The notes under the pieces were generated by a model. It saw only the letters and a program-made list of their open reading frames with translations. It was not told where the DNA came from and searched no databases. Below, piece after piece: positions 5,590 through 16,159 of a DNA stretch of 64,000 nt. Origin of the DNA: Candidatus Saccharimonadota bacterium (GTDB lineage: Bacteria; Patescibacteriota; Saccharimonadia; Saccharimonadales; UBA4665); NCBI GenBank assembly GCA_028286345.1, contig JAQBRT010000001.1, positions 434,001 through 498,000 of the forward strand, written 5' to 3'. Position 1 is the stretch's first letter, and every line of letters starts with the position of its first letter. Position numbers and translations under genes: made by a program.

Positions 5590-6204
5590 CTATAAAGCAG
5601 ATTGTTGTGTGACCAGTGTTTGCAACCGGTCAATACGGCTGTTATCCTCTGGTGTCATCTTGAATTTGTCGAGCCAGCTAATCATATAGGCAAGATCAAG
5701 TGGCTTACGGCCCGACTTAACAACGGCATCAATATCTATCCAGTCTTTTGGTCTGTCAAACACGGCCTTACAAACGATTAAATCTTCTATGGAAAGCACG
5801 GGTATTACAGTATCGCCGAAGGGTTCGTGCGAAACACGTTGAGCCATTGATTCGTGGAAGTCAGTATTTGCGAAGAAAAGATCAATGTAGGTAGTTGTCC
5901 AGAGAGAGCGGGCTTGGCCACTCGCTACTATTTCTCGTCGGACACGTTCTTCATCGGGCAAGCCGTATAGCTGGCGAAGTGCGCCAAGCGCACCTTCTTG
6001 GTCGGCAGGGCTGAGAAAAATATTTACGTCAATATCTGATGTTGCGCGTGGTTCACGGTGATAATTCATGGCAATGGCGCCGCCAAATGCGTAGGGCAAC
6101 TGCGATTCTTGAAAGGCCGCATTTATAGCAGCTACTTTATGAGCCCACGATAGCTCTTCGCTTTGCTCAGCGGGTGGGATAGTAGGGAAAATTTCGTCTA
6201 CCAT
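5590..6204 (-). CDS. Nucleotidyltransferase-fold protein, putative toxin of a two-gene module
   Basis: A 204-residue protein with the polymerase-beta-type nucleotidyltransferase core: GGAIAMNYHREPRATSDIDV supplies the GG and Asp-x-Asp residues, and a later YIDLFF offers a third acidic residue. The layout resembles AbiEii-like and MNT-like transferases that modify tRNA or proteins in toxin-antitoxin systems. It lies five bases after an 81-residue partner gene in the same direction. The toxin role is inference; target and reaction are unknown. Confidence 0.85.
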   Translation of the reverse strand: MVDEIFPTIPPAEQSEELSWAHKVAAINAAFQESQLPYAFGGAIAMNYHREPRATSDIDVNIFLSPADQEGALGALRQLYGLPDEERVRREIVASGQARSLWTTTYIDLFFANTDFHESMAQRVSHEPFGDTVIPVLSIEDLIVCKAVFDRPKDWIDIDAVVKSGRKPLDLAYMISWLDKFKMTPEDNSRIDRLQTLVTQQSAL

Positions 6205-6864: not shown

Positions 6865-7680
6865 CTAACGTAGATACTTCTCAAAGCGATTTTGGAATAA
6901 CTTATAACGTCTTGCGTCCGTATTTTCCATAAGGTCGGTAAGTATCTTGAGACAGCCCGTATAGTAGGCGTAGGACGTGCTCATTGCTTTCTGAATTTCT
7001 ACTGGATCGCCACCAATATCCCACGTATATTCATCATCTTTTTCCTTCACAACCGAAACAACCGTACGAGCGTCTTGATGTGTGTAATTTGATAAGTATC
7101 TATACACAAGATCGTAGTTCTTTAATACCGTATTGCCGTCTTCTGCTGCTGGCTTGTAATGGTCTATTAGCTGACACTTTTCCCTTAGGTTTAAAGGGTT
7201 TTTGCCATATAAATCTCGCTTTGGGTTGCTTGGATCTAGAACACCTTTAATTGTTGGTAGTGGATTTTTCTTTGTGATTTCCGTGGCTAACATAGTTGCT
7301 TCAACCAAGATCTTATCTAAGTTCGCTTGCTTTATTTGCTTGTCCGCAAAAAGCCACTTAGCAACTTTCATACGATCATACTCGGAGATGACGTATAAAT
7401 AGCTAGACCAAGTATTATCATCTGTACAGGTCATTAAGCACATATTTATCCAAGTTTCTTGAAGTGCTCTAGTTTGTAGGTGTGCTGTCGCTGGTTGCGA
7501 TTTTGGCTTACACACCAAAGTGACAACGCCGTCAAAGTGAGCTTGAGCGTGTGTAAAGTAGGCCATTGTGAGAACCTGTTTATCAGTCATTTGGTTTGGC
7601 TTGAAATGATTATTTTGCATGTACTCAAAGCCATACTTTGAGACATCTTTCATGAGTCGCACAGCATTCTTTACGTCCAT
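6865..7680 (-). CDS. Helical protein of unknown function (DUF5677-like)
   Basis: A 271-residue, helix-rich, soluble protein. The spacing of an RALQETWIN segment in the middle and a later RYLSNYTHQDART recalls DUF5677, a family of unknown function; this match is from memory and weak. It starts three bases after the stop of the 612-residue membrane protein, so the pair is one operon and probably acts together. Codon use is more AT-rich than in the housekeeping genes nearby, in line with acquisition by transfer. Confidence 0.88.
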   Translation of the reverse strand: MDVKNAVRLMKDVSKYGFEYMQNNHFKPNQMTDKQVLTMAYFTHAQAHFDGVVTLVCKPKSQPATAHLQTRALQETWINMCLMTCTDDNTWSSYLYVISEYDRMKVAKWLFADKQIKQANLDKILVEATMLATEITKKNPLPTIKGVLDPSNPKRDLYGKNPLNLREKCQLIDHYKPAAEDGNTVLKNYDLVYRYLSNYTHQDARTVVSVVKEKDDEYTWDIGGDPVEIQKAMSTSYAYYTGCLKILTDLMENTDARRYKLFQNRFEKYLR

Positions 7681-7683
7681 AAA

Positions 7684-9522
7684 CTAACCGTTCTCACTGT
7701 AAATTGTTTTTATTTTTTCTAACTTCCTAATGATTGATTCTAGCCGTAACTTTTCTCTTTCTTCAAGCTCTGTATCCAAAGCATTTTGGGCAGTCTGAAT
7801 TAGTTCATCAAGATTCCAAAAGCTTCTAAAATACTGATGGTATCTCGCTGCAAATAACTTAATAGCATTTTCTATTTGTTGGTTTTGTTCTGCAGCAAAA
7901 TTCTGCATTCGTACATTCTCGTCGTCTTGCCATTCGGCTGTAGACACCCTACCCATAAGCCCAAACCGTCTGAAGTTCTTGTACTGGGTGTCAATAATGA
8001 GCTGGCTATCGGTAGTATGTTGAGCGTCGTACAAGAACCAATACAGCTCCGCAATGGTTATTGGATCGGCATCTCCAAAGATTAATTCAATAGCAGAATC
8101 AATATTGATCAAGCTATCTTGATCTTGAACATTACCAAGCTTCTTGAACAGCCATTCTTTAAACACATTCTCCACGACAAAGCTAACATTATATTTTCCC
8201 TCGTATAGATTATCTGAGGTTACTTGCCAGTGTTTATGCTCTGTAAAGTACGAATCAAAGTGATATGTATCTATCTTGGCGTCAAACAGTGCGTCAAAAA
8301 ATTCATTTAAGAAATAGTTCAAAACTACACTTGATCTAAAGCGATCCCTATTACCAAGCATTAGTAGGTCACTATCTTCAAGGTAGGCGTCCATTGCTTC
8401 AAGAAGCGCCCAAATACGATTATCATTCATTGAGTCTGATATAAGTCGTCTATTCGTGTTTTCTAATGCGTGCTTGGCTCTCCAAAGTATCTCTGTATTA
8501 TTTGTCACCATTGCTCTGCGATCATCAACTATTTTACTCACAGCAGAGTAGATTAATAAAAATCTCTTCGTGTAGGCTAAATAAAAACGCCAGCTGTCTA
8601 AATTCCTGCGATCATAGTACTTATCATAGATCTCTAGCCTTATTGAAAGGTCTCCATACATATCTTTCTTCTTTGCTTTTAGGATTCCTTCGACACCTTC
8701 AAAAAACTCCTCGTGCAATAACTCCTCATAGCCTTCAGGTATCCGCTTTTCCAGTACTGCCTGCCAAGCGTCTCTTGCGTTGAGATATCGGATAAGGTGG
8801 ACTATTCTTGCAAACCTATATGAGCCACCCAGATAGCTTCGATCATCACGCTTATCATCAGGAGCGTTAGGGTCTTGTGGGTCAAAGAACGAAGGGTCGG
8901 CGGCAAGGTCGCTTAACCATAGGTATATCCGACAATAAATGCCCAGTATAAATGCAAATGCGGCTATTAGTACTGGCGATAGCAGCACCTTTAAGGCAGC
9001 GTCTCCGTACGTATAGTTTGGCGTGATACTGATTAGAATTATTAATAGGCAGGACAACATTAAGCCTCTTAGCTTAACTACATCACGAATGATTGCCATT
9101 CTTGCAAGCGACCAACCACGAGTATCGTCGCCAAGTAACACCAGCCCAGCAGATAGAAGAATAGTCAGGAGTACGATCAGGATAGTTAAGGCATGCTCTG
9201 TGAAATTAATGTAAGAGAAGGAGCTAATAAAACTGCTGGGTACAAAGTACAGCCCAATATAAAGCACAGCTAATAGAAGTACGTAGCCCATGAAGGTTGT
9301 TCTTGGCTTTAATAGTTTAACGCCGTAATAGTGGTCAAAGAGGAACCGATAGGCCTTTTCCTTTACCAAAAGAACTTTTTTCTTGGTAGCTGCAACTACC
9401 TTTTTAAAGCTTTCTTTTAAAGAACGTTCTTTTGTTAGAAACGCTTTGGCTTTTGAGAAGTGCTTTTCGTAAGCTTTCCGTATCTTGTCAGTAGATTTTT
9501 TACTCTTATTCGTCTTCGCCAT
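7684..9522 (-). CDS. Large membrane protein of unknown function, first gene of a two-gene module
   Basis: A 612-residue protein not matched to any family I know. A very basic N-terminus (residues 1-60, Lys-rich, probably coiled) precedes four predicted membrane helices at about 76-96, 108-130, 151-168 and 178-198. About 410 helical cytosolic residues follow, ending in a charged coiled-coil-like tail (ALDTELEEREKLRLES). No nuclease, NTPase or hydrolase motif is visible. The following gene begins three bases downstream. The GC content is low for this window. Confidence 0.9.
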   Translation of the reverse strand: MAKTNKSKKSTDKIRKAYEKHFSKAKAFLTKERSLKESFKKVVAATKKKVLLVKEKAYRFLFDHYYGVKLLKPRTTFMGYVLLLAVLYIGLYFVPSSFISSFSYINFTEHALTILIVLLTILLSAGLVLLGDDTRGWSLARMAIIRDVVKLRGLMLSCLLIILISITPNYTYGDAALKVLLSPVLIAAFAFILGIYCRIYLWLSDLAADPSFFDPQDPNAPDDKRDDRSYLGGSYRFARIVHLIRYLNARDAWQAVLEKRIPEGYEELLHEEFFEGVEGILKAKKKDMYGDLSIRLEIYDKYYDRRNLDSWRFYLAYTKRFLLIYSAVSKIVDDRRAMVTNNTEILWRAKHALENTNRRLISDSMNDNRIWALLEAMDAYLEDSDLLMLGNRDRFRSSVVLNYFLNEFFDALFDAKIDTYHFDSYFTEHKHWQVTSDNLYEGKYNVSFVVENVFKEWLFKKLGNVQDQDSLINIDSAIELIFGDADPITIAELYWFLYDAQHTTDSQLIIDTQYKNFRRFGLMGRVSTAEWQDDENVRMQNFAAEQNQQIENAIKLFAARYHQYFRSFWNLDELIQTAQNALDTELEEREKLRLESIIRKLEKIKTIYSENG

Positions 9523-9879
9523 AAATTCCGGTCTATCAACAAGTACTTACATCTATAAAATAGCATCTTTAACCACATTTATTCCAGACGTTCCAGTTAC
9601 TTATCTGTTAATACGGTTTTAACTTCAGCAATAATGCTGCACCAAATGGGGATTTATGGACGCTTCGGCGTCCTTTTGCTTCCAAACTATATTCAGAGCC
9701 CTAATCACTCGCTCTGGCTACTTGCATACAGATGATAAGAAGAACAAAAAAACTGCAGATTTTATGCTGTCTTATTCCCATAATGGTAAAAATGATAGGA
9801 AAGCTATGCGCATAGTGTTGCAATAACGAGTGAGTTCATAAATAATACGGTTAAGATAACTAGGGAGCGAGGACACATT
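9523..9879. other. Gene-free interval with a possible short RNA
   Basis: A 357-base gap between divergent genes. It holds a candidate RNA (9615-9677), the repeat TGCTGCACCAA (9635-9645), and near its right end TAAGAT and a purine-rich GGGAGCGAGG before the next start. Nothing else is recognisable. Confidence 0.5.
9615..9677 (+). ncRNA. Candidate short RNA with terminator
   Basis: A TG-T-TAATAC element (9606-9614) resembles the extended -10 used by tRNA genes here. It is followed by hairpin CAGCA-ATAA-TGCTG (9626-9639) and a textbook terminator, GGACGC-TTCG-GCGTCC-TTTT (9658-9677). The layout matches promoter, tRNA 3' end and terminator with the tRNA body missing, so it may be a remnant and not a functional RNA. 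Confidence 0.35.
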
Positions 9880-10620
9880 ATGTCAAAGAGACTGTCAAAT
9901 AATGGCTTCGGCATTGTCGAGATATTGGTGGCCATAGCGCTGGTTGCTGTTATCGGCCTTGGGGGTTACTTCGTCTGGCGCAAGCACGAGGATAAAAAGG
10001 TTGATAGTACTAATACCCAAACATCCACAACAGCGCAAACAAAAAAGGTAGACACAACTACAAACAACCCTTATGCTAGCTGGAAAACTTACACATCGAC
10101 AGTCGGCAACCTTACTTTTAAATATCCTTCGACTTGGAGTATCGAGGGATGGGTGAATGATAGTCCCGTTGCAACATCTGCAATTAGTGGCAAAGAAACC
10201 TCACTTTCAATATCTGCGCCCTCTAATACCGCCAACCCTGAAAACGGTCGTGTTGGAGTGAGTATCAATTTCACAACCCCTAACAGTACATTCGTTAATA
10301 GTAAGAATCCACTTGATGGCATCGGCACAACAACTACGCTCCAAAATGGCATTAAAATATGGACGAACGATAAAGCTACCGACCCAAATACAGTCGACCC
10401 AGATGCTGGCAACCCCACTTGTGCTGTGACAAAAATTTTAGGGAAAGGTGATAAGAGCTACTACTATGGCTACCCACTGAATAACGGACTGTATTTAGAA
10501 ATAAGCACAAGTTATTGTGAGGGGCAAAGATCCACAACAAGCCTTACCTACTCAGCCCAAGTAAATAGTCAAGAGCGTAAGGACGGAATTAGTATGATTT
10601 CATCAATAAAGTTCAACTAG
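9880..10620 (+). CDS. Pilin-like membrane-anchored protein
   Basis: A 246-residue protein whose N-terminus looks like a type IV prepilin: short basic leader, then G-FGIVEILVAIALVAVIG with Glu at position 5 after the likely cleavage glycine, then a Ser/Thr-rich linker (about residues 35-65). The remainder is a beta-rich extracellular domain beginning near TVGNLTFKYPSTW, with cysteines at CAVTK and SYCEGQ that may pair. A strong purine-rich ribosome site precedes the ATG. No prepilin peptidase or pilus ATPase is in the window. It lies 41 bases before the CHAP-lectin gene in the same direction. Confidence 0.85.
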   Translation: MSKRLSNNGFGIVEILVAIALVAVIGLGGYFVWRKHEDKKVDSTNTQTSTTAQTKKVDTTTNNPYASWKTYTSTVGNLTFKYPSTWSIEGWVNDSPVATSAISGKETSLSISAPSNTANPENGRVGVSINFTTPNSTFVNSKNPLDGIGTTTTLQNGIKIWTNDKATDPNTVDPDAGNPTCAVTKILGKGDKSYYYGYPLNNGLYLEISTSYCEGQRSTTSLTYSAQVNSQERKDGISMISSIKFN

Positions 10621-10661
10621 ATTAAATAACCGCTTGGTGGGAGGCAATCGGAAGGAAAATT

Positions 10662-12398
10662 ATGAGCCTTGAGCCTGCCCCACAGACCGCAGAACTGCAA
10701 ACAGACCCGAATTTACTTGAACGATTTAGAACTACAACACTAGAATTACGTACTAAACTTGGAAGGATAGCCGTAACGGGGCTATTAGTTTTGGGCGCAA
10801 CCGCTACCGCTGAGACCTTTGATGCAGCACCTGCACATGCTGATACGACGACCTATTCTGACCTTGGATATCCTTGGCACTTAAACAATGATGACTCACT
10901 TGCTCCTTGTAAGTTTGGTAATGATAGGGTGAACAACCCTACTTGTGCTAGCGACCCAACCCACCCGTATGCCGACCCATATTACTGGGGTGTGTTTGAT
11001 GCCAGTAACGTATTCCATCAGTACCGCGAAAGCGGTGGTTACGAATACCGTAACTGTACTGATTATGTAGCCTGGAAACTTGAATCGTTAGGTGTAGCCG
11101 CAAGTGCCGTTAATGGTCTTGGAAATGGCGGTCAGTGGTACAATAATGCCCCTAGCGCTAAAAAGTCTCTTACCCCAAAAGCTGGCGATGCAGCTGTATC
11201 AACAAATGGCTCATTTGGCCACGTAGCATTTGTTGAATCAGTAAACTCAGTAGACCCAAATAATGCTGGCAATGACAACATAACGATATCTGAGTACAAC
11301 TATGACTATCACGGTGATGGTGATACTCGAACAGGTACCGCTTCAGTAATGGGCTTTAGCGAATATGTGGATTTTGGAGTAACCCCGACTGGGAGCAGCG
11401 GTACGACAACCAACAGTAAACCGGCTGCCTTATCTCGCACTTCAAGCAATATAGATGCATTCTATCGTGATACTAGTGCACACCTTGAGAATATCGGTTG
11501 GAATTCTTCTACAGGATGGGGTGCTGCAGTAGCCATTGCGGGTAGTAATGTGTCCAGTAATCCAGCCGCCGTAACGAGGTCGTCATCCAACATGGACGTT
11601 TTTTACCGTGACACCAGCAATAACCTTGAAAACGTTGGCTGGAACTCATCAACGGGTTGGAGTGCGGCTAGCACCAAAGTAAGTGGCGGTGTAGTCACGG
11701 GCGACCCAACGGTAATTGATCGTACGAGCGATAGTATGGATGTCTTCTATAGAAGTAATAGTGGGAATTTAATGAACATAGGCTGGACTGCAACGGGGGG
11801 TTGGGGTACACCTCAAACTCGTGTTAGTAATGGCAGCGTTGCGGGTAGTCCTGCCGCAGTAGCACGCACCTCAGGTAATATGGACGTCTTTTATCGTGAT
11901 ACGAGTAATAATCTTGTTGATATAGGCTGGGATGCGAGCACTGGATGGAGTTCACCAGTTGTACGTTCTAGTGGAAATGCAACGGGAGACTTCTCGGCAA
12001 TCTCGCGTACCTCGGGTAATATGGACGTGTTTTTTAATACCACAAGTGGTGCATTGGCCGATGCCAACTGGGATGTCAATGTTGGCTGGAATGTAGGTAC
12101 GCCTGCAACAAGCGGTGTATATGGTAGTCCTGCCGCAGTAGCACGCACCTCAGGTAATATGGACGTCTTTTACCAAGACTCCAGCAACCATTTAGTAAAC
12201 ATTGGCTGGAATTCTACGACGGGTTGGGGTTCACCAGTAATTCGAGCCTATAATATTGGAGATAACCCTGTAGTTACTGCCCGAACCTCAGGCAATATGG
12301 ACGTTTTCTTTAGGGGTAACAGTGGAAACTTCCTCAATGAAGGCTGGGATGTAAATGTCGGCTGGACACAGACTGGACTAGGTGGAAGCGTAGGCTAA
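10662..12398 (+). CDS. Secreted CHAP-domain peptidoglycan hydrolase with seven-bladed PLL-like propeller
   Basis: A 578-residue exported protein. A hydrophobic stretch (about 37-50) ends in AHA before D, a likely signal-peptidase site after an unusually long N-region. The CHAP domain (about 65-245) has Cys132 in YRNCTDYVAW and His187 in GSFGHVAFV, with ISEYNYD supplying the third residue; such enzymes are amidases or endopeptidases on peptidoglycan. From about residue 253 come exactly seven repeats of roughly 46 residues, each with an R-T-S-x-N-M-D-V-F-Y core and a G-W-N-x-x-x-G-W turn, the pattern of PLL-type beta-propeller lectins. A GGAAGGA ribosome site precedes the start. Confidence 0.9.
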   Translation: MSLEPAPQTAELQTDPNLLERFRTTTLELRTKLGRIAVTGLLVLGATATAETFDAAPAHADTTTYSDLGYPWHLNNDDSLAPCKFGNDRVNNPTCASDPTHPYADPYYWGVFDASNVFHQYRESGGYEYRNCTDYVAWKLESLGVAASAVNGLGNGGQWYNNAPSAKKSLTPKAGDAAVSTNGSFGHVAFVESVNSVDPNNAGNDNITISEYNYDYHGDGDTRTGTASVMGFSEYVDFGVTPTGSSGTTTNSKPAALSRTSSNIDAFYRDTSAHLENIGWNSSTGWGAAVAIAGSNVSSNPAAVTRSSSNMDVFYRDTSNNLENVGWNSSTGWSAASTKVSGGVVTGDPTVIDRTSDSMDVFYRSNSGNLMNIGWTATGGWGTPQTRVSNGSVAGSPAAVARTSGNMDVFYRDTSNNLVDIGWDASTGWSSPVVRSSGNATGDFSAISRTSGNMDVFFNTTSGALADANWDVNVGWNVGTPATSGVYGSPAAVARTSGNMDVFYQDSSNHLVNIGWNSTTGWGSPVIRAYNIGDNPVVTARTSGNMDVFFRGNSGNFLNEGWDVNVGWTQTGLGGSVG

Positions 12399-12820
12399 AA
12401 GAGTGGTTTACGCAATCTGATGAAAAATTTGCCGAATAAAATTTATAACCCATCAATACACACCACAGTATCAACTTATTTCAATCTTAAAATTATTGGG
12501 AGAGCTGTTTGATATTGAACGCGAAGTTCGTGAGCTAATGACAGCTCCATTAGGTGGGGCGCTGATCCTGCGGGTCTTGATTGGTCATCAACAGGCGCAT
12601 CCGCTTGGAGGCTTACAGACTTTGCCTATGAATTAATCGCATTTATTGAGGACTCACCAGAAGAGCTGCAGAAGAACTCATCACTCAATTGCCACAAGCG
12701 CACTCCTAGTCATAGAATTAAGGTTTCAACCTAAATCGTGCTCATCTGATATATGTTCTAGCACCTCTGAGAATAGGTAAACTTTTAGCGCAGTGCTGCA
12801 CCAATCATAACCACCAGCCC
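12399..12820. other. Gene-poor interval containing a decayed coding remnant
   Basis: A 422-base gap after the CHAP-lectin gene. Its centre holds a frameshifted coding remnant (listed separately). Near the right end is TGCTGCACCAA (12794-12804), identical to 9635-9645. No promoter or RNA gene is evident. Confidence 0.5.
12445..12735 (+). pseudogene. Frameshifted remnant of an unidentified gene
   Basis: One frame reads a protein-like segment with LLGELFDIEREVREL and then runs out of sense. Around 12545-12560 a second frame takes over with GADPAGLDWSSTGASAW and DFAYELIAFIEDSPEEL before a stop near 12735. Neither half has a start codon and ribosome site. Together they look like one helical protein broken by an indel. 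The family is not recognised; ends are approximate. Confidence 0.4.
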
Positions 12821-13366
12821 TCACCTCTTCCGAGATCGACTTTTCTGCTGCTTGGTTAGGTCTTGGTGTACTCCCACTAAGAGTAGCCAGACTCCAGAGA
12901 TTAGGAAGGGAACATTGAGTATTATGGCGGCCGCGGCTATATACAATCCCATGATGTGGCCCAGGGTAAGGATGAGGGCGCCAATTATTTCAACTGCGTA
13001 GCAGGAAGCCCCTATGGTTATGCGCGTATAGTTAAGACCCACAGTGCTACCCTGTTGTTTTAGGGATTGCAGGTAACCATGTACGTAAATGGTCGCGGCG
13101 GTACTCGATACAATCAGCAGTTCAGCTCCAACCGCCAGATGGTTTTGCCCTCCCATGATCGCAAATGCACAAGCCATAAAGATAGCAGCAAGCCCCGCGA
13201 GTGTGCCTATGGCACGGTTTCTATGGGTTACGTCTTGGGTAATAATGTCTAGGTTAAGTGACATCGATACAAATACTAACCCGGTTAAGGCCGCCGAAGC
13301 CGTACCAACCAATTGGAAAAAGCCACTCCAAATTTCTGGTCTATAGATATCTGTTGCCATCATCAT
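12821..13366 (-). CDS. Integral membrane protein of unknown function
   Basis: A 181-residue protein with four to five predicted membrane helices and a basic C-terminal tail (TKQQKSRSRKR). The N-terminal WSGFFQLVGTASAALTGLVF is a pattern I have seen in small uncharacterised membrane proteins of many bacteria; no function is assigned. Three tandem ATG codons begin the frame. A TAAAAT box on the minus strand ends six bases before the first of them, so it is probably leaderless. Confidence 0.85.
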   Translation of the reverse strand: MMMATDIYRPEIWSGFFQLVGTASAALTGLVFVSMSLNLDIITQDVTHRNRAIGTLAGLAAIFMACAFAIMGGQNHLAVGAELLIVSSTAATIYVHGYLQSLKQQGSTVGLNYTRITIGASCYAVEIIGALILTLGHIMGLYIAAAAIILNVPFLISGVWLLLVGVHQDLTKQQKSRSRKR

Positions 13367-13421
13367 GCTCTTATTTTAACAAAAATGGTCGTAGCTATGC
13401 GGAAAGGCTATACTTTTAAGT

Positions 13422-14021
13422 ATGAGTAAAGTAACTTGCGGCGTATCGGTGTCATTGGACGGATTTATAGCCGGGCACAATATGACCTTAGAGAATCCTT
13501 TTGGCACCATATCACCAATGCTGTTGAACAGCTGGCAGTTCAACGAACCTGAAAAAAACAAAGCCGAGCGGGAAGCACTGGTGAGCGCCGGTGCTTTTAT
13601 CATGGGCCGGAATATGTTTGGCCCAAAGGATCTACAGTCAGATCCCAGCTGGATAGGCTGGTGGGATGACAATCCGCCATATCATGCACCGGTATTCGTC
13701 TTGTCCCACACTGAGCATGAGCCAATAGTTTTAAAAGGTGGCACAACATTCTACTTTGTGACGGACGGCATCGAGTCGGCTATGAAGCAGGCAAAGGAAG
13801 CCGCCGGTACAAAAGATGTGGCGATTGCCGGTGGCGCTAATGTTATCAATCAATATCTTGCAGCCGGCCTGATTGATGAACTCTGGCTTCATATAGGGCC
13901 AGTAACAGTAGGCAGCGGCCAGCGGCTATTCAAAGATACTCCGGGTATCAAACTTAAGCCGCTCGAAGTACGAACGACCGATCTGGTGACACACATCAAA
14001 TATGCTATCCAGCACGACTAA
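13422..14021 (+). CDS. RibD C-terminal/dihydrofolate-reductase-like protein
   Basis: A 199-residue NADPH-dependent reductase-fold protein of the RibD-C/DHFR family. Motifs: SLDGFIAG near the start, GAFIMGRNMF, and DVAIAGGANVINQYLAAGLIDELWLH typical of the RibD C-terminal domain. Stand-alone members are common and their substrate is generally unknown; a riboflavin role is not supported here, since no rib gene is nearby. TATACT (13409-13414) ends seven bases before the ATG, suggesting a leaderless mRNA. Confidence 0.92.
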   Translation: MSKVTCGVSVSLDGFIAGHNMTLENPFGTISPMLLNSWQFNEPEKNKAEREALVSAGAFIMGRNMFGPKDLQSDPSWIGWWDDNPPYHAPVFVLSHTEHEPIVLKGGTTFYFVTDGIESAMKQAKEAAGTKDVAIAGGANVINQYLAAGLIDELWLHIGPVTVGSGQRLFKDTPGIKLKPLEVRTTDLVTHIKYAIQHD

Positions 14022-14145
14022 CTCGTAGTAGACAATAAGTTCATAGGGATTACCGGCGCTTATAACGCGTCAACAGGCTACACATGTGAATAGCTCTCGC
14101 AAGGGGGGTTTACAATAAGTACTTAATCAATTATCATTCAACTGT

Positions 14146-14469
14146 ATGGTTGAATCAAATGCACAGTTAGATTCATTGTTTGCGGCTCTGTCTGATAGCA
14201 CGAGGCGCAGTATTTTGTCGCGCGTAGTCGAATTCGAAATGAGTATCAGCGAGATAGCAGTACATTACAAATTAACATTTGCAGCAATTTCAAAACACAT
14301 ACAGGTGCTAGAAAAAGCAAACTTGGTTACCAAGCGTAGGCGCGGTAAGGAGCAAGTTGTAATCGTAGTGCCGAGCACGCTCAATGTGGCTCGCGAGCAA
14401 ATCGAACGGTACGCCCGTATGTGGGATGAGAGATTTAACAATTTAGAAACGTTACTAAAGGAGAAATAA
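14146..14469 (+). CDS. ArsR-family winged-helix transcriptional regulator
   Basis: A 107-residue regulator with the winged helix at about residues 10-75: LFAALSDSTRRSIL, the recognition-helix region SEIAVHYKLTFAAISKHIQVL, and a wing containing RRRGKEQ. No metal-binding cysteines are visible, so it is not a metal sensor of the classical kind. The AHSA1-like gene begins two bases downstream, a very common pairing, and it probably controls that unit. Confidence 0.95.
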   Translation: MVESNAQLDSLFAALSDSTRRSILSRVVEFEMSISEIAVHYKLTFAAISKHIQVLEKANLVTKRRRGKEQVVIVVPSTLNVAREQIERYARMWDERFNNLETLLKEK

Positions 14470-14470
14470 T

Positions 14471-14977
14471 ATGAGCAAATCAATATTTACCGTATTGGAC
14501 GACAATAAATCACTGGTCGTTAAGCGAACATTTAGTGCGCCAAAAGAGTCAATTTGGGCAGCATATACTGAGGCTGATAAGCTAGCAAAATGGTGGGGCC
14601 CAAAAGGCTGGGAGACTGAAGTTAAAGAAATGGATTTTCGTGTTGGCGGACCCTGGTTTTATGCAATGACCTGCAAGGACGAAGCACAAGGTGATTGGTT
14701 CGGAAAAAGTAGTTGCGGAAAAGGCGTCTATGATGCCATTAAACCACAAGATTCATTCAGCTATACGGACTACTTTACTGATGAAGACGGAACGATAACT
14801 CCTGGAATGCCAACCTCACGAACTACTATCGAATTAATGCAGGACAACGGCGAGACAACGATTACAAGTACCTCAGAGTTTGAGAGCGTCGAAGCGCTTA
14901 AACAAGTTCTTGATATGGGCATGCAAGAAGGCTTTGACCAGACTTGGGATAATTTGGAAATCTTCTTAAATAGCTAG
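14471..14977 (+). CDS. SRPBCC/AHSA1-like protein
   Basis: A 168-residue START/SRPBCC-fold protein similar to the Aha1 C-terminal domain. Typical features: VVKRTFSAPKESIWAAYTEA, KLAKWWGPKGWE, and a C-terminal helix QGFDQT-like (MQEGFDQTWDNLEIFL). The fold binds hydrophobic ligands; the ligand here is unknown. Translation is probably coupled to the upstream ArsR gene, whose stop lies one base before this start. Confidence 0.95.
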   Translation: MSKSIFTVLDDNKSLVVKRTFSAPKESIWAAYTEADKLAKWWGPKGWETEVKEMDFRVGGPWFYAMTCKDEAQGDWFGKSSCGKGVYDAIKPQDSFSYTDYFTDEDGTITPGMPTSRTTIELMQDNGETTITSTSEFESVEALKQVLDMGMQEGFDQTWDNLEIFLNS

Positions 14978-15085
14978 CGCAAGCCTTAGTAAGCCCAATG
15001 TAATTGCCCCCGTATTAATTGATTTTTTCAAATAGTATTTAGACTCTAAAATCTCATATTTGTATGTAAAACAGATGAGAGACTA

Positions 15086-15167
15086 TATAATAATCAGTGA
15101 TGTGATGGCCGAGAACAGGCCATAGCTCGCAAGGCTATGAACGGTAAGGTAGTGTCTACCTCACATC
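15086..15167 (+). promoter_or_regulatory. Promoter and structured multi-branched 5' leader
   Basis: TATAAT (15086-15091) puts the transcript start at about 15098. A closing stem begins there, GATGTGA (15099-15105) with TCACATC (15161-15167). Inside are three perfect hairpins: ATGGCC/GGCCAT (15105-15123), ATAGC/GCTAT (15122-15138) and AGGTAG/CTACCT (15147-15161). Some outer pairs compete. This looks like a riboswitch or other cis-acting RNA, or a small RNA; no known class was recognised. Confidence 0.5.
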
Positions 15168-15178
15168 TCCAAATACGT

Positions 15179-16159
15179 ATGACAGTACAAGACTACATCC
15201 AGGCCAAACTTGAAGAACTGAAACAGCCAGTTAATTTAGAGAAGCCAAAAGGCACGGAACAACTAGTAGAGGCTATATATAAGGCTTTACTGTCCAAAAA
15301 ATTCCGTAAGTATTCGGCTAACGAAGACCTACAAAAACACATCATGAATGCTATTCGCATAAATGTTGAGAAGAACGAGCCAATTAATATAACTTTCCTG
15401 CACGGTGCCTACAAGTTATGGCGGCTTGAGGAAACGCCAGAGGCTGACTGGGCGGAGCTATTCTCCCTCATGTATTACTCAAATTGGGTTAAGCCGATTT
15501 GCGAGATCTATGAGCCGGGAGTATGGTTTGACTTTTTTGTGGACGACCTAATTATTCCGAAGCTCGACAATATTGATTTAGCCGACGTCACGGCGTACAT
15601 GGACAGCTACCAATCACTGATTGATTTTCTCAAGCAGTATCAACCCAGTAACTTAAAGATGACTATCACGACTGTTGGTGGGCAATTTGAATCGCCCCAA
15701 GCTTTCGACGAGTCAGTGCAAAGCAACCTTGAAAAGCTGACAGCCGAAACACCAGGTGGCTTGCCAGAGCTAACAGAAAGCCAAGCCGCGATGGTGGAAC
15801 TAAATACTAAGGCCACTGACGAACAGCTGAAAGACCCTAAATGGCGTGAAAAGGTATATCACCTACACAATGCCTATATGGCAACAAAGGCGGAGCCAGG
15901 CTATCACAAGAACCGTCCTGAAAAAATCATGGCGTTTACGCAACCTCTACCATCTGGCACAACTATTTCTGTAGGCTCTACGAAGAGTTCAGTCATGAAG
16001 TTTTGGGTTGGTGTAGGGGTTTTACAACCTAAAGACGGTAGCTTTAGTCAGGTTATTCTTTCTCTCGGGCAGCTCGAGAAAGCCGATTTTAGTTACGATT
16101 ACATACGCATCGAAGGTCTAAATGGCAAAAACTTTAACCGAATACGGGTTATGAAATGA
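15179..16159 (+). CDS. Protein of unknown function behind a structured leader
   Basis: A soluble protein of 326 residues from the ATG at 15179 (MTVQDYIQAKLEELKQ). An in-frame ATG at 15137 lies inside a leader hairpin and is less likely to be the start; an in-frame GTG at 15152 is also possible. No Shine-Dalgarno is clear. A segment CEIYEPGVWFDFFVDDLI is faintly like isocyanide synthases, but catalytic context is lacking and I do not assign it. The stop overlaps the hydrolase start (ATGA), implying a two-gene operon. Confidence 0.8.
   Translation: MTVQDYIQAKLEELKQPVNLEKPKGTEQLVEAIYKALLSKKFRKYSANEDLQKHIMNAIRINVEKNEPINITFLHGAYKLWRLEETPEADWAELFSLMYYSNWVKPICEIYEPGVWFDFFVDDLIIPKLDNIDLADVTAYMDSYQSLIDFLKQYQPSNLKMTITTVGGQFESPQAFDESVQSNLEKLTAETPGGLPELTESQAAMVELNTKATDEQLKDPKWREKVYHLHNAYMATKAEPGYHKNRPEKIMAFTQPLPSGTTISVGSTKSSVMKFWVGVGVLQPKDGSFSQVILSLGQLEKADFSYDYIRIEGLNGKNFNRIRVMK

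Follow-up and report, generated by a model that had tools for sequence, protein, structure and literature searches.

Cultured Saccharibacteria are epibionts of Actinobacteria (PMC10633639, PMC12206443). A VCBS lectin-like envelope protein is essential in Southlakia (PMC10633639), and PilX2, a seven-bladed propeller minor pilin of Nanosynbacter lyticus, is required for normal host binding (PMC12206443); thus propeller-type proteins matter at the contact between Saccharibacteria and their hosts. The umbrella toxins of Streptomyces have exchangeable lectins, both propellers and bulb lectins, which bind teichuronic acid of the Streptomyces wall; at the C-terminal end of UmbA they direct an antibacterial particle to the wall glycans of Actinobacteria (PMC13274773). 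Seven-bladed propellers are also formed by the PLL/PHL lectins (PLL, PLL2-5 and PHL of Photorhabdus, BP39L and CV39L). The fucose pocket of PHL consists of two tryptophans (Trp199 and Trp214) and Thr194, and Arg186, Glu188 and Trp202 are among the residues of its galactose sites (PMC5584973). CHAP hydrolases include PcsB, ScrM, the SAOUHSC_02979-type amidases and the LysM-CHAP endolysins.

The locus described here lies in a 64,000-nucleotide stretch of DNA, hereafter the window, from a 0.90-Mb genome which is 98% complete. No 16S rRNA gene was found in the assembly, and its placement in the Saccharibacteria is through named relatives: genome search for the CHAP region gave relatives named Candidatus Saccharibacteria, including YM_S32_TM7_50_20 and GZL_HY_2_bin.140, which belong to the window's own family. 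The phylum is episymbiotic, in agreement with the original prediction of an organism likely to live on other cells.

From position 6900 to 16000 the G + C content is about 0.39-0.48, as against about 0.51 in most of the window, and this stretch, flanked by tRNA-Gly (6598) and tRNA-Cys (17474), may have been acquired. It contains the CHAP gene with its upstream neighbour, a DUF5677 protein, a 612-aa protein and a RibD_C-type gene. The 612-aa membrane protein (7684-9522, minus strand) is encoded upstream of the pilin-like gene described below, in divergent orientation, and has no match in Pfam or NCBIfam. An AbiEii-type nucleotidyltransferase (5590-6204, minus strand; Pfam 5.3e-8) is located between two tRNA genes. 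PADLOC detected no system.

An ORF with an ATG start at 10662-12398 (plus strand) encodes a protein of 578 aa. Residues 1-61 (10662-10844) were judged by eye to be signal-peptide-like, with a polar extension (about residues 1-35) followed by a hydrophobic stretch and an AHA cleavage-like site; a low-confidence helix covers residues 16-40 in the AlphaFold2 model. The CHAP domain (residues 124-213; 11031-11300) was detected by Pfam with an E value of 2.9e-16 and 60.1 bits, against a curated cut-off of 26. Its catalytic Cys, His and Glu/Asn are all retained: Cys132, His187 and Asn213 are invariant in 7- and 10-sequence alignments of distant relatives, and Glu211 is found in most. Judged from its sequence, the protein is probably an exported peptidoglycan hydrolase. 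Comparison of N-termini by eye, from presumed start codons, suggested a long polar stretch of about 24-36 residues ahead of the signal's hydrophobic segment in CHAP proteins with an upstream partner (P0001, L023, L107, L108 and L122), and a shorter one in L100 and L101, both without a partner.

The C-terminal region (residues 252-578; 11415-12395) is divided into seven repeats of about 47 residues each (252-298, 299-346, 347-394, 395-441, 442-487, 488-533 and 534-578), which in the DNA form seven in-register copies spaced 138-144 nt apart. The mean pairwise identity of the repeats is 54% over 36 columns, and every repeat has the same residue at eight positions (R, S, D, F, S, W, G and W). Pfam Fungal_lectin (PF07938) matched residues 356-569 with 35.6 bits, above the cut-off of 25.3. 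NCBIfam beta_propeller_lectin matched residues 264-567 with an E value of 5.7e-24, but its 84.8 bits are below the curated cut-off of 200, as are the 68 bits of the NCBIfam CV39L model below that of 350. The closest solved structures by sequence were PLL2 (6rfz, 3.8e-17), then PHL and PLL3. These matches and the repeat tiling bear out the predicted joining of a CHAP domain with exactly seven PLL/PHL-type repeats. Closure of the propeller was checked by structure prediction. The AlphaFold2 model, built from an alignment of ten sequences in which the propeller was covered by one other sequence besides the query, has a mean pLDDT of 63.6, with values mostly of 70-87 in blades 1-4 and lower in blades 5-7. 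When it was compared with the PDB by Foldseek, the best 23 matches were all PHL, PLL-PLL5 or BP39L, with E values down to 7e-17 and TM scores (target) of 0.77-0.83 over 327-354 columns. A closed seven-bladed propeller of the PLL/PHL type is therefore expected for the C-terminal half, at moderate model confidence.

The sugar sites of the known lectins have not been preserved. In a blade-by-blade alignment, the position of PHL Trp199 is occupied by Glu, Met, Val, Ala or Leu in the seven blades, and none of them has Trp at the position of Trp214. The galactose-site positions are also changed in every blade, to Asn or Ser at 186, Asp at 188, and Gly or Asn at 202. Fucose binding, as originally predicted, is therefore not to be assumed for this propeller. 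All seven blades have a Trp one column past PHL position 202, which leaves room for a repeated site of another kind. The propeller of L100 retains the second pocket Trp, indicating that the sugar sites vary even among close relatives.

Compared with the described systems, the window protein shares with the PLL/PHL lectins the seven W-type blades, the sequence and the predicted fold, but differs from them in its CHAP fusion, its replaced fucose- and galactose-site residues and its sub-threshold NCBIfam scores. With the CHAP hydrolases it shares the CHAP domain and its catalytic residues; however, PcsB has a coiled coil, the viral CHAP relatives have LysM, and no propeller is present on any that was found. 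An origin from a phage lysin was considered and is not supported, since the CHAP proteins from viral contigs were LysM-CHAP endolysins or of the tail type, all without a propeller. UmbA has a trypsin-like domain and acts within an UmbB/UmbC particle, whereas here the lectin-like part is joined directly to a putative peptidoglycan hydrolase, and no UmbB/UmbC-like product was found by Pfam or NCBIfam among the neighbouring genes in the window. Like PilX2 and PilY1, the locus has a Saccharibacterial seven-bladed propeller tied to pilin-type proteins (PMC12206443), but PilX2 carries RCC1-type repeats on the pilin itself and no hydrolase, while in the window the propeller and the pilin-like part are encoded as separate products. 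A Nocardia plasmid protein (NZ_CP109569, P0002; L063, 3989-5530) also pairs a PLL-type propeller with a papain-like cysteine hydrolase, but in it the seven-bladed propeller is followed by a C-terminal annotated papain-like protease, and it has no CHAP domain. No single record in the phage and plasmid collections combined CHAP with a PLL propeller, and in the collection of papers searched none mentioned a CHAP domain together with Saccharibacteria. Beyond these collections, for instance in Actinobacterial genomes, the pairing may also occur. The components were already known; what is new is their combination, the pattern of exchange and the partner gene.

Relatives were sought by genome-wide pattern scanning; the single protein as query gave none that was confirmed, and a 3-row alignment gave nine. 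The CHAP proteins of Saccharibacteria are of two kinds. The first is PcsB-like, with a coiled coil and CHAP, and adjoins FtsX in genomes G016 and G061; the window genome has one such copy (L002), separate from the CHAP-propeller gene, which is thus not the housekeeping one. The second, accessory kind occurs patchily and consists of a signal peptide, a CHAP domain and a variable C-terminal part. This part is a PLL-type propeller in the window protein, L023 and L100; FG-GAP-type propeller repeats in L060 and L062, and, as read from the repeats, in L107, L108, L119 and L123; B_lectin repeats in L027/L101 (1.6e-11); and other repeats or parts in L061, L121, L122 and L133. The L101 repeats also matched the model of the putidacin L1-family lectin-like bacteriocins (E 6.9e-57, under the cut-off). 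In the CHAP tree, the PLL-type protein L023 of genome G001 grouped with the FG-GAP-type L107 and L108 at 100/100, and the CHAP domains of L023 and L107 are 56% identical. As the C-terminal part in this clade is PLL in a single genome and FG-GAP in the other two, the binding domain has been exchanged while the CHAP domain stayed. The CHAP-propeller protein is a member of a modular Saccharibacterial set with a changing C-terminal domain.

PLL-type propellers are uncommon, with a match in 9 of 393 genomes of the order, and some are located on proteins other than CHAP. L100 (4995-6362) has just five near-identical PLL-type repeats, either because the array is shorter or because repeats were lost in assembly. 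In the YM_S32 genome of the same family (G004), L055 (3311-5365) is a PIG-L-type deacetylase whose C-terminal part matches the propeller query, a further case of an envelope-type enzyme that carries a propeller-like part. L022 (4114-5826) and L058 (2908-4632) are secreted, with an N-terminal domain of no assigned family that contains SGSEFQAGRIMDDGVFFNSN, plus PLL-type/DUF346 repeats; secreted L057 (2488-3912) has the same N-terminal domain joined to ChW repeats instead. These three suggest C-terminal exchange of the same kind on another N-terminal domain.

The reading we favour, which we hold to be about evenly balanced between right and wrong, is that of a secreted or surface hydrolase aimed by an exchangeable glycan-binding domain, working with a cognate membrane partner and used on the host wall. 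The protein would be exported from the Saccharibacterial cell, and its propeller would attach it, by as many as seven sites, to a repeated glycan on a cell surface, allowing the CHAP domain to cut the peptidoglycan beneath. The membrane-anchored partner might tether or present the enzyme at the cell surface or pilus, or shield the producer's own wall. Exchange of binding domains between lineages would fit an aim at differing host-wall glycans. The original suggestion that the propeller binds a glycan of a partner cell and the CHAP domain cuts its wall is a plausible one, and both the swapping of C-terminal domains and the recurrence of the partner gene speak in its favour. Counting against the favoured reading are the replacement of the known PLL/PHL sugar-site residues, the lack of a partner at about half of the related CHAP loci and the wide occurrence of the partner families, mostly away from CHAP genes; moreover, the propeller might tether the protein to the surface of the cell that made it.

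Of the alternatives, remodelling of the cell's own wall survives best, although we consider it unlikely. The peptidoglycan cut would be the producer's own, for example to give passage to pili or secretion machines, and the propeller would keep the enzyme on the producer's surface glycans. Autolysins are common among CHAP proteins, the neighbouring protein is pilin-like and membrane-anchored, and the window genome encodes a type IV pilus (T4P) processing peptidase. However, the PcsB-like protein encoded elsewhere in the genome is of the housekeeping kind, and a protein aimed at its own cell would be less expected to occur patchily and to differ among relatives in its C-terminal domain. This variation, together with the separate housekeeping CHAP, makes the host the likelier target.

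The pilin-like gene just upstream of the CHAP-propeller gene, as named in the original prediction, was located at 9880-10620 (plus strand) and encodes a membrane-anchored protein of 246 aa with an NGFGIVE prepilin-type start, a single N-terminal hydrophobic helix and a PsbP-like extracytoplasmic domain. It scored 17.4 bits with TIGR02532, above the cut-off of 16.3, and 20.1 bits (4.7e-4) with Pfam N_methyl, just below that of 21.2; PsbP_2 was found in four of the six members of its family (best 3.7e-10). Its structure prediction had a mean pLDDT of 32. The gap of 41 nt between the two genes (10621-10661, plus strand) contains a ribosome-binding-like stretch, GGAAGGA, and no terminator-like site. 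A same-strand membrane-anchored extracytoplasmic protein is encoded directly upstream in 7 of about 15 accessory CHAP loci, and is absent at L100 (the closest CHAP relative of the window protein), L101, L102, L062, L119 and L123. The pilin-like/PsbP-like family is found at this position in the window, at L023 of G001 and at L107 of G084, with gaps of 41, 52 and 48 nt, respectively, and the best genome-wide match of the window partner in both G001 and G084 is the neighbour of their CHAP gene. A second family, with one N-terminal helix, an IKEWG motif and two Cys, occupies the position at L108 and L122 (gaps of 43 and 32 nt) and at L133 and L121, where the start codons are uncertain; members are also found downstream of L060 and, in divergent orientation, beside L061. 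Profile likeness between the two families is confined to the N-terminal helix region. Members of both are common across the order, in 96 and 73 of 119 genomes, and mostly lie away from CHAP genes, which points to other roles as well. A partner upstream in 6 of about 14 further loci, against about 2% expected per locus, gives P of about 2e-7, where the 2% is our own generous estimate and the CHAP loci are partly dependent on one another. An incidental neighbourhood was considered and set aside, since the upstream gene is present at distant CHAP loci too.

This pairing of a propeller gene with a pilin-like gene would also fit a protein that is mainly an adhesin, in which a weak or structural CHAP domain binds the wall and the two products form a pilus-tip or surface adhesin like PilY1/PilX2. 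The role of the PilX2 propeller in normal host binding (PMC12206443) agrees with this, as do the prepilin-type Gly-Phe and Glu5 retained in the window partner. We nevertheless find an adhesin quite improbable, as the CHAP catalytic residues are retained; moreover, Glu5 is absent from the partners at L023, L107 and L108 and Gly-Phe from those at L122 and L133, which makes pilin processing a variable feature. Least probable is a secreted lectin-targeted lysin against rival bacteria with the upstream partner as its immunity protein, to which the recurrence of an adjacent membrane-anchored gene of varying sequence, binding domains exchangeable as in the umbrella toxins (PMC13274773) and the sub-threshold putidacin L1-family match of the L101 repeats would lend themselves, but the partner is missing from about half of the loci, its families are common without a CHAP neighbour, and it matches no recognised inhibitor family and has a structure prediction of very low pLDDT.

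Returning to the host-directed hydrolase, a wider and still doubtful extension would be that Saccharibacteria possess a family of lectin-aimed wall hydrolases, each with an adjacent membrane-anchored partner for self-protection or for display of the enzyme, and that exchange of the C-terminal glycan-binding domain sets the host range. The finding bears on how Saccharibacteria select and breach the walls of their actinobacterial hosts. With a wall hydrolase and an exchangeable glycan-binding domain in one gene, next to a recurrent partner gene, the system is directly testable, both as to which wall polymer the propeller binds and as to whether domain exchange tracks host range. If true, the targeting of wall hydrolases by episymbionts would be a second use, beside the umbrella toxins, of exchangeable propeller or bulb lectins on actinobacterial walls.
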